Source: Telmatobacter sp. DSM 110680
Lineage (GTDB): Bacteria; Acidobacteriota; Terriglobia; Terriglobales; Acidobacteriaceae
Assembly (NCBI RefSeq): GCF_039994875.1
Contig: NZ_CP121196.1
Coordinates: 2,046,001-2,110,000, forward strand
Direction of reading: 5' to 3'
Length of the DNA stretch: 64,000 bases
In this document: positions 46,461-49,777 of the stretch, in pieces
How positions within the stretch are numbered: the stretch's first letter is position 1
How the letters are laid out: every line of letters begins with the position of its first letter
Made by a program: the position numbers and the translations under genes
Notes under the pieces: generated by a model
Told to the model about the DNA's origin: nothing
Databases searched by the model: none
The model's input: only the letters and a program-made list of their open reading frames with translations

Positions 46461-47036
46461 CTAGGCCCGGCCGGCGAATTCGCGCGTTTCAGTGAAGACT
46501 TTCACCTTTTCACCCTCTTCAACGAAGAAGGGAACTCGTATTTCCAGACCGGTTTCAAGTCGCGCATGCTTGGTAACGGCTCCGCTGGCGGTATTGCCGC
46601 GTGCGCCTGGTTCTGTATAAGCGACTGCGAGCTCCACCTTTTCGGGTAACTGGAGTCCGATCGGGTTCCCATTGAATTTGTCGATCTTGATGATCAGGCC
46701 TTCGGTGAGGAACTGGAGGGCATCGCCAAGCTTTTCGGCCGTCAGCGGAATGGTGTCGAACGACTCCTGGTCAAGGAAATACGATGCATCGCTATCGGAA
46801 TAGAGATAGGAGGCCTCAATGGTCTCGAGATCCGGCTCTTTGAACTTTTCTCCGGCCTTGAAGGTCTTGTCGAAGACGGCGCGTGTGAGCAGGTTGCGCA
46901 TCTTGAATCGGACCAGGGTCTGGCCACCGCGAGCGGTGGGAGTGGAGACTTCCACGTCAAGGCAGTAGTAGGGAGCGTTTTCGAATTCAAAGTACATCTT
47001 GCGCTTAATGTCGATTGCATCGATGAGTGCGGCCAT
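46461..47036 (-). CDS. EF-P-family translation factor with YeiP/EfpL-type loop
   Basis: 191 aa, three-domain EF-P fold: a KOW-like N-terminal domain (residues 1-65), an OB domain (LYSDSDASYFLDQESFDTIP) and an OB C-terminal domain (NTASGAVTKHARLETGLEIR). EF-P rescues ribosomes at poly-proline. The tip loop reads STPTARGGQTLVRFKMRN: where bacterial EF-P has a modified Lys (PGKG), this has Arg in an TARGG context. That loop matches the E. coli YeiP/EfpL type (SPTARGAATL). Whether it is the only EF-P of the genome cannot be told from here. Confidence 0.88.
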   Translation of the reverse strand: MAALIDAIDIKRKMYFEFENAPYYCLDVEVSTPTARGGQTLVRFKMRNLLTRAVFDKTFKAGEKFKEPDLETIEASYLYSDSDASYFLDQESFDTIPLTAEKLGDALQFLTEGLIIKIDKFNGNPIGLQLPEKVELAVAYTEPGARGNTASGAVTKHARLETGLEIRVPFFVEEGEKVKVFTETREFAGRA

Positions 47037-47167
47037 GCGGATTCCTTTTTAGAGCGTCGTTCTCAATCTTAATGGATCGGCGAGCGTGATTCTAAGACAA
47101 GGTAATGCGTAAGTTCCCCAAGGATGGTGCCGACTGAAGACCGATAGCTAATCGATGAGAACGTGCT

Positions 47168-49777
47168 TTACGCGCCTACAGGAGCGCGGAGCTGATTGAT
47201 CGCGGCAGTCAGATCGCCGGCTAGGGCGTGCTGCGTTTCGTTACTGAGTTTGGCGCCGCCCTCGGTGAGATAAAAAACGTCGATGGCGGTTTCGCCTTCA
47301 GTGTCAATAAGCGCAACCTCGATGTTGCACTTGTGAATGCTGAGGGTGAGCGCGATCTGGCGCAACAGGCCGGGAACATCCTGCGCGACGACTTGCAACA
47401 GCGTGGAATGGGTAGAGGATTCCGAGTCAAATTGCAGGCGCGTCGCGACTTCAACTTTCACATTCGAGGTATTGCTTGCGTGGCGCCGCGCTTCCAGCAT
47501 CTGCTCTACAGCGACTTTTTGCGCGACGACATCGTGGACGTAATCGAGGAAGCGATCTTTCTCGCTGGGATTCAACTCGATTGTGCGAAATACGTCGGTG
47601 AACTGAAAGCTGTCGACCACCACGCCGGCATCGTTGGAGAAGGCGCCGGCTTTCACGATGTTCATGCCCCAAGCAGCGAGAGCACCGGCCACGTCGGCAA
47701 ACAGGCGGCTGCGGTCGCGAGCGATCACCGTGAGGTCAAAGAGCTGGCGGTGCGGTCGAAGGTCGAGTTGAACGGGATTTTTATCGAGATTGGCGGCGAG
47801 CTGAAAGTGGTTGCGAATGTGCTCGGGGAGGCGGGTCTGAAGGTAGCGCTGCGGAAGGCCTTCGAGAAACTGTTTGAGGTCGTCGTACTGCGCGGGAGGC
47901 ACCATCGAGCGAATGCGATTCAGCAGGGTTGGATCGATCGCCGCGTGGTATCGGACCTCGTCCACGCTGCGATCCATGAAGTTGGCGGTGGCCATGTAGA
48001 GCTGCCACAGGTTTTCGGCCTTCCACGGAGTAAGCGCTTCGGGATTGACGGCCTTGATATCTGCGTAGGTCATCAGCGTCAGCATCTTCAGGAGGGCGGG
48101 ACTGCCTATTTTCTCGGAGAAGGCGCGAACATTCTCGGCGTCGAAGATGTCGCGGCGCAGGGCATTAGACATCTCGAGGTGGAGGCGAATGAGCTTGAGC
48201 ACGGAATCGCGCTCTTCGGTGTCGAAGTCGAGCCGCGCCATAAAGCTGTCGGCGAGTTCTACGCTCTGGCCGGTGTGTTCGCCGCTGCGCCGGCCTTTGC
48301 CGGTGTCGTGCAACAGCAACGAGAGCAGGAATAAATCGAGACGGTCGATTTCGGGAAGCAGTTGAGCGAGACGCTGCTCGTAGTCGTGTGCAGGCTGCCG
48401 CAGGCTATGAACATTGTCGATGGTGAGGAAGGTGTGCTCGTCGACGGTGTAGCGGTGATAGCTGTCGCGGATTACGAGCGCATCGATGCCGTGAAATTCG
48501 GGGATCAGCATTTCCAGCACGCCCAGTGCGTGCATGGTGCGGAGAGCGTGCGCGGCGTGCGGTCCCAAAAGAACTTCGCGGAGTGCGTTCCAGAGATATG
48601 GGCCTTCTGGGATATGGATAGCCAGCGCGGGCAGCGCGTCGGTGATGCGGTCCTCGGCAGCCTGCGAGAGGGCGTATCCGTGGGTTGCCATCAGCGAGAA
48701 GATGCGCAAGATCGCGGCGGTATCGCTGAACTGCGCGCCCGGAAGAATATCGATGCGGCCCTGGTCGAGAATGAAGTCGGTGCCAGCGATGGGAGTGCGG
48801 CGGCGACGGAACTGGCGGTAGAAGCTGACGGGGGCGGGAAGATGTTCCATCAGCAGTGCGGCGCGGCGGTAGATGACACGGGCGTGCCGGTAGTAGGTCC
48901 GCATCCAGTAGGCGGGGTCAGCGGTGCCACGCGTTTCAAGGCCGATGGAGTTTGCGGCGGCCTCGTCCTGCGACTGCCAATCGAGTGTGTTGTCATCGCG
49001 GCCATGGCGGAAGTGGAGGAAACATCGCGCGGCGGCGAGGAAATCAAAGGCGGCTTCGGCGTCTCCGCGAGCGCTCTGGAAGACCCCGCCACGCTGGCGA
49101 GGCCATTCCTTGGTTTCCTTGAGGTGGAAAAGAAGTGCGAACCAGACGGCGAGGTGGTAATCGCGAAGCCCGCCCGGGCACTCCTTCAGATTCGGCTCGA
49201 GATGGAAGATGGTGTTGCCGTATTTGGCGTGGCGGGCGCGGGCAATTTCGCCCAACTTCTGAGTGATGGTGTTCCATTCGCTTAGAACCAGGCCGGGAAA
49301 AACTGTCTGATGAAGCTGCTGATAGAGAGGGAACTGGCCGGCTAGAAATCGGCGGTCAAGGGTGGCCAGGGTGAATTCAAGATTGTCGGGGTCGAATTTT
49401 CCGGCTTCCTTAACGGTTCTCGAACTTGGGCTGGCGCGCAGACCGATATCCCACATCCCTTGAATGATGCTCCGGACGGCTTCCTTGGTCTGCTCCTCGG
49501 TCTTCTCGTCGGCGAAAGCGAACAGGACGTCGATGTCTGAGTAGGGGAAGAGATCTTTGCGACCGTAGCCGCCCAGGGCGAGCAGCGAGACGTTCTGTGC
49601 GGGCTGGCCGGCGAAGGCTCGGCGCCACATTTCAATGAGGATGCGGTCGACGACTGCGGATCGCCGCCGGATCGCTGCGGTGCCGTCGCCAGTCCGCTCA
49701 CAAGTCTGGCGGACGAGCGCCATCTCCCGGAGATACTGATCCCGTAGATCGTCAACCGCTAAAGCGACTGGATTCAT
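47168..49777 (-). CDS. glnD: [Protein-PII] uridylyltransferase GlnD
   Basis: Adds or removes UMP on PII according to glutamine. 869 aa: nucleotidyltransferase domain ([20 protein letters not shown] near residues 65-90), a UR/HD domain for removal ([19 protein letters not shown]), a long linker, and two C-terminal ACT domains ([20 protein letters not shown] and [20 protein letters not shown]). Complete and intact. It is the third nitrogen gene in the block after amtB and glnB, separated from glnB by a 725-bp gap, so it probably has its own promoter. Its PII target with modifiable Tyr51 is next door. Confidence 0.95.

Follow-up and report, generated by a model that had tools for sequence, protein, structure and literature searches.

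An Arg-tipped, EfpL-type elongation factor P paralogue beside an Asn-tipped EF-P in Telmatobacter sp. DSM 110680, with a survey of the Acidobacteriota

The window, i.e. the whole stretch of 64,000 nucleotides of the Telmatobacter sp. DSM 110680 genome analysed here, carries on its minus strand, at positions 46461..47036, an ORF with an ATG start that encodes a protein of 191 amino acids followed by a stop codon. On the basis of three EF-P domains and the loop alignment, it is annotated here as an EfpL-type elongation factor P (EF-P). The domains, all encoded on the same strand like the other features of this locus, are the KOW-like N-terminal domain (PF08207, residues 7-65, 46842..47018), the middle OB domain (PF01132, residues 74-126, 46659..46817) and the C-terminal domain (PF09285, residues 134-190, 46467..46637). 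Each of the three Pfam models (EFP_N, EFP and Elong-fact-P_C) scored above its gathering score, which is the domain composition used to define the EfpL subgroup (PMC11611912). Residues 32-41 (TPTARGGQTL), which comprise the beta3-beta4 loop and the beginning of the strand after it, are encoded at 46914..46943; Arg36 at the loop tip, the counterpart of Arg33 in the alignment with E. coli EfpL, has its codon at 46929..46931. Inspection by eye of the upstream sequence revealed AAGGAA (47042..47047), which lies 5 nt upstream of the ATG and may serve as ribosome-binding site. The upstream neighbour (47168..49777) is a glnD-like ORF of 869 amino acids, presumably glnD. A conserved operon with this neighbour was considered and rejected: the upstream match was found in 12 of the 80 named efpL loci, while 66 had room for it but no match, and 2 had no room.

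The 80 loci kept from a total of 277 relatives are 73-90% identical to the window protein and are labelled as Acidobacteria or subgroups thereof; the nearest named species among them is Occallatibacter savannae (89%), and Geothrix is found at 74%. The gene is under purifying selection, with 0.055-0.098 non-synonymous vs 0.65-0.81 synonymous differences per site in comparisons with six close relatives. The solved relatives of the protein are EF-Ps, with E. coli EfpL (8S8U) ranking 10th of 12. The AlphaFold model, computed from 20 sequences (the window protein and 19 others at 73-89% identity to it), was poor (mean pLDDT 55, below 50 for residues 33-37), and gives no structural support.

Compared with E. 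coli EF-P, the window protein has an insertion of two residues at the tip of the loop, which is shared with E. coli EfpL (YeiP; PDB 8S8U) and leaves Arg36 at the tip. EfpL has been defined by a loop of more than seven residues with an Arg at its tip and a Pro three positions before it (PMC11611912); the alignment with E. coli EF-P and EfpL shows all these features in the window protein, and both Pro30 and Arg33 (numbered as in E. coli EfpL) are conserved throughout the 34 EfpL-type rows from the phylum survey described below. In addition, P33, T34, A35, R36, G37, T40 and L41 are invariant in 21 aligned rows (the window protein, 19 orthologues chosen from the 80 loci, and E. coli EfpL), and therefore TPTARGGQTL is not a chance string. 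The preliminary description, made from the letters alone, had proposed that this is an EF-P homologue whose loop is of the EfpL/YeiP type; the three domains, the two-residue extension and the Arg tip bear this out. An Arg is also found at the tip of the P. aeruginosa-type EF-P (Pseudomonas aeruginosa, PDB 3OYY), which is rhamnosylated by EarP (PMC11611912). However, the loop of that protein, KSGRNAA, has neither the extension nor the Pro, which is typically missing from EarP-modified EF-Ps (PMC11611912), while the window loop has both.

The assignment has its limits. The window protein did not reach the NCBIfam equivalog cut-offs for EfpL (NF003392, 145.1 vs 216 bits) or yeiP (TIGR02178, 127.8 vs 264.05 bits), and the general EF-P models score it higher (192.7 and 189.4 bits, over their cut-offs). 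Its loop and domains make it an EfpL as defined in PMC11611912, though the NCBIfam cut-offs do not. It shares with E. coli EfpL the three domains, the longer loop, the Pro and the tip Arg, as well as the presence of a second EF-P in the same genome, but is only 30% identical to it and keeps one of its four acylated lysines (K57; K23, K40 and K51 are replaced by L, R and V), so that the acyl-lysine control of the E. coli protein is probably not shared. The presence of EfpL in Acidobacteria is already in print (PMC11611912), where this phylum is named within the EfpL branch on the basis of an EFP_N domain alignment including the loop; the window protein is, therefore, one more EfpL.

Is this the only EF-P of the genome, as the preliminary description had allowed for? 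It is not: in a profile search, PF01132 matched twice in the genome, a single contig of 5,987,865 bases. The domain matches of the second EF-P lie at G000:C1:5471087-5471440, and its ORF (L001:1306-1866, minus strand) encodes 186 amino acids, 35% identical to the window protein. Nor is it a Lys-loop EF-P of the usual kind, which together with the normal modification enzymes would have made the window protein an ordinary paralogue, because its loop reads TPGNLRA, with an Asn aligned at the site of Lys34 of E. coli EF-P. The second EF-P resembles the Lys-type EF-Ps associated with EpmA and EpmB (that of E. coli and, within the phylum, those of genomes G042 and G014) in its domains and in keeping P32 and G33, but has N34-L35-R36 in place of K34-G35-Q36. 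The tips of the two copies being Arg and Asn, the standard lysine modification is applicable to neither.

The distribution of the two types was surveyed in 99 genomes of the phylum, at least 90% complete, by reading the loop of every listed EFP_N match. A match was present in 98 of them; the remaining one (G088) was excluded from the tip tests. The largest class combined an Asn-tipped EF-P with EfpL (30 genomes), followed by Lys-tipped EF-P alone (29), Asn-tipped alone (26) and Arg-tipped alone (7); two genomes had Lys-tipped EF-P and EfpL, and EfpL alone, Arg with EfpL, Lys with Asn, Asn with Gln, and no EF-P accounted for one each. An EfpL-type copy was thus present in 34 of the 99 genomes, accompanied by an Asn-tipped EF-P in 30 and by a Lys-tipped one in 2. 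EfpL has been reported to co-occur predominantly with beta-lysylated EF-P (PMC11611912), whereas in this sample a beta-lysylated partner could be present in at most 2 of the 34 EfpL genomes. All 12 genomes of the window's genus had the Asn-tipped copy, and 9 of them had EfpL. At the family level, of 150 genomes (at least 95% complete) 59 had one EFP_N match, 86 had two and 5 had three, the EF-P types being read in the fetched genomes. EfpL stood alone in one genome of the phylum survey (G003) and one of the family (G130), both drafts in many contigs, which may lack a piece of sequence. The association of EfpL with the Asn tip was significant by Fisher's test over the 98 genomes (p 1.4e-5) and over the first genome of each of 52 families (p 0.024). 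On independent pairs of the EF-P tree (without G015, whose two copies are both canonical, and without the Gln-tipped G098 copy) it was not significant (median p 1), the differing pairs being so few that a p of 0.05 was out of reach. For this reason, our claim is one of co-occurrence of EfpL and Asn tip, not of dependence.

The loop columns were left out when building the trees. A careful tree of 134 rows (omitting the EF-P of P. aeruginosa, G098_L217, and G087_L157 with its frame broken in the stretch retrieved) placed all 35 EfpL-type rows, i.e. the 34 of the survey and E. coli EfpL, on one side of a branch with support 64/96, and a quick tree of 137 rows did the same with support 97, although P. 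aeruginosa EF-P fell on the same side. In contrast, careful trees of 73 and 72 rows, in which the first row per class per family was retained, did not unite the EfpL rows, which starred branches forced into two groups; E. coli EfpL and the G064 copy are set apart in the 72-row one. A single EfpL clade was nevertheless not rejected by the AU test on the 73-row set (p-AU 0.289). The window protein belongs to a subclade of 24 rows (100/99), and every member genome also has an Asn-tipped copy.

These data bear on the possibility that the TARG loop of Acidobacteriota arose by convergence, independently of E. coli EfpL. The two groups forced in the smaller trees would agree with such an origin, as would the failure of the window protein to reach the curated EfpL/YeiP cut-offs and the separation of its 24-row subclade from the G064 copy, which goes with E. 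coli EfpL (100/99). The larger trees, the outcome of the AU test and the placement of Acidobacteria in the EfpL branch by PMC11611912, even if its alignment includes the loop, point the other way, and we consider convergence rather unlikely. Common descent of the window protein with E. coli EfpL is likely. It should be noted that the G064 copy (L218, SPSARGAVTLYK) pairs with E. coli EfpL and not with the other copies of the phylum; perhaps it is a transfer.

In the survey sequences, the loop of the Asn-tipped EF-Ps is a distinct motif. The residue after the tip is Gly in all 32 Lys-tipped copies, while the 58 Asn-tipped copies have Leu (41), Trp (12), Lys (4) or Arg (1) there, followed at position 36 by Arg (49), Pro (8) or Lys (1); a single Asn-tipped copy of the 58, that of G010, lacks the P-G before the tip. 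The loop may have changed as a unit, with K34N accompanied by G35 to L, W or K and mostly by Q36R. E. coli EF-P is inactivated by the single change K34N and retains 3.8% of activity with G35N (PMC6544042), but neither substitution alone shows how the natural combination would behave. Asn tips as such are already in print: they are found in 2.23% of EF-Ps, and proteins resembling deoxyhypusine synthase (DHS) have been noted along with Lys or Asn tips (PMC6544042). Our literature search, which covered main texts, mostly from open journals, retrieved no paper joining EfpL with an Asn-tipped EF-P or describing the PGN[LW]R loop, and gave no answer on the mode of action of Asn-tipped EF-P. One genome, G015, contains a Lys-tipped EF-P (PGKGRA) together with an Asn-tipped one (PGNLRG), the two falling in the same clade (L119, L136), and Lys tips nested in Asn clades are also found in G069, G008 and G023. 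The tip thus seems, from its position in the trees, to have been switched more than once.

As for the modification enzymes, the profile search gave no EpmA match over the cut-off in the genome of the window; two of the frames below the cut-off were scanned and proved to be lysine- and asparagine-tRNA ligases, and a 629-amino-acid frame has two weak matches. KamA/EpmB gave no match in this genome, with a search that was positive in 9 of 14 controls, nor in any of the 10 genomes covered from its family. The pair EpmA and EpmB, which marks the Lys-type pathway, was thus not found. Over the whole phylum, EpmA exceeded the cut-off in 11 of 99 genomes (10 with a Lys-tipped EF-P and one without an EF-P match) and in none of the 58 Asn-tip genomes. 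Matches of similar length below the cut-off occur in some Lys-tip genomes (G052, G041, G062 and G071), so that 11 has to be taken as a minimum. KamA/EpmB, efp and EpmA are located together in G042 and G014, showing that the searches detect the pathway where it is present. EarP was not matched in the genome of the window or in the 99 genomes of the phylum, but the control genomes were equally silent, and therefore its absence is not established. The preliminary description had expected the modification enzymes to differ if the window protein were the only EF-P, and it was right in so far as the usual lysine-modifying ones were not found. YmfI acts on Lys, and the SDR family to which it belongs is broad.

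It could be argued that one of the loop residues, be it Arg36 or else the Asn or the Arg of the second EF-P, bears a modification of unknown kind, introduced by an enzyme outside the known list. A candidate would be a DHS-like protein of 323 amino acids (L003:1486-2457, minus strand), in which the Lys of the motif TWGKL, presumably the catalytic one, falls in the same alignment column as the WNK/WGK Lys of two DHS chains of solved structure. When matches of at least 60 bits are counted (three genomes with weak partial matches, G032, G073 and G082, counting as without), 56 of the 58 Asn-tip genomes carry a gene of this type, compared with 20 of the other 40. Across the phylum, the full-length matches form two score classes, of about 130-155 and 195-323 bits. 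However, the link with the Asn tip was not significant when relatedness was controlled, and the score of the protein stays well short of the cut-off in each of the DHS and homospermidine models that it matched; bacterial relatives make polyamines. Furthermore, DHS acts on the amino group of Lys (PMC2821294), which neither loop tip has here, and Arg33 of E. coli EfpL is unmodified (PMC11611912). Such a modification appears, on balance, quite improbable.

EfpL helps ribosomes through proline-rich stretches. In most bacteria the tip of EF-P is a chemically modified lysine, and EF-P is usually presented as requiring a modified Lys or Arg at that position; neither copy in the genome of the window is Lys-tipped. 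We consider it probable that the window gene encodes an EfpL (YeiP)-type paralogue acting through an unmodified Arg36, as an accessory rescue factor beside the second EF-P. In E. coli EfpL, a docking model brings the unmodified Arg to the CCA end by means of the long loop, the lack of modification of R33 was shown by mass spectrometry, and exchange of R33 for Lys (R33K) abolishes the relief of the growth defect (PMC11611912). The window protein shares loop length, the Pro three positions before the tip and the tip Arg with E. coli EfpL, and these two residues recur in all 34 EfpL-type rows. By analogy with E. coli EfpL and EF-P, the window protein would bind the stalled ribosome beside peptidyl-tRNA-Pro, the longer loop would set Arg36 against the CCA end, and peptide-bond formation at XP(P)X motifs would be eased. 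The Asn-tipped EF-P of the same genome would be active without any known modification.

Conversely, the Arg-tipped factor might be the main polyproline rescue factor of the lineage, the Asn-tipped EF-P being inactive on polyproline or otherwise employed; the preliminary description had likewise suggested that rescue would depend on it, were it the only EF-P. The inactivity of E. coli EF-P K34N (PMC6544042) and the scarcity of Lys-tipped partners (2 of the 34 EfpL genomes, against 30 with an Asn-tipped copy) could be read in this way. Yet the E. coli mutant differs in one residue, while natural Asn loops also diverge at one or both of the two residues that follow; the Asn-tipped EF-P is the only one in 26 of 98 genomes; and in the genus 3 of 12 genomes lack EfpL, whereas all 12 keep the Asn-tipped copy. 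Rescue is therefore not simply dependent on the Arg-tipped factor, and a leading role for it is hardly to be expected.

Returning to an accessory EfpL beside an Asn-tipped EF-P, we tentatively suggest, as a possibility somewhat short of an even chance, that much of the Acidobacteriota uses an EF-P system without known modification, formed by an Asn-tipped EF-P that is joined in about half of the Asn-tip genomes (30 of 58) by an Arg-tipped, long-loop EfpL. A stiffened loop and the long EfpL loop have been named as ways to position the CCA end without modification (PMC11611912); if the suggestion is correct, the Asn loop would be a further one. A direct test is on offer, because a natural Asn loop and a long Arg loop coexist in the same cell, and there are near relatives in which EfpL was not found.

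Two minor groups of sequences emerged from the surveys. Odd tips were read at L152, L155, L177, L176, L215, L216, L138 and L159, with loops such as TQGRGYA, TQGRQAG, TPGRYKS, GTARGQA (an Arg without the loop extension) and KIANRRA; these genomes gave no EarP match, with the control silent. In the family of the window, a third, divergent EF-P-like paralogue (L282, L283, L284 and L285) has loops such as AGAAKMSG, AGTAKMGG and AGSAKLGG and shares 26-33% identity with the other copies over the aligned parts, L285 matching only the Asn-tipped one; G098_L217, with the loop VAQMAG, may resemble it.
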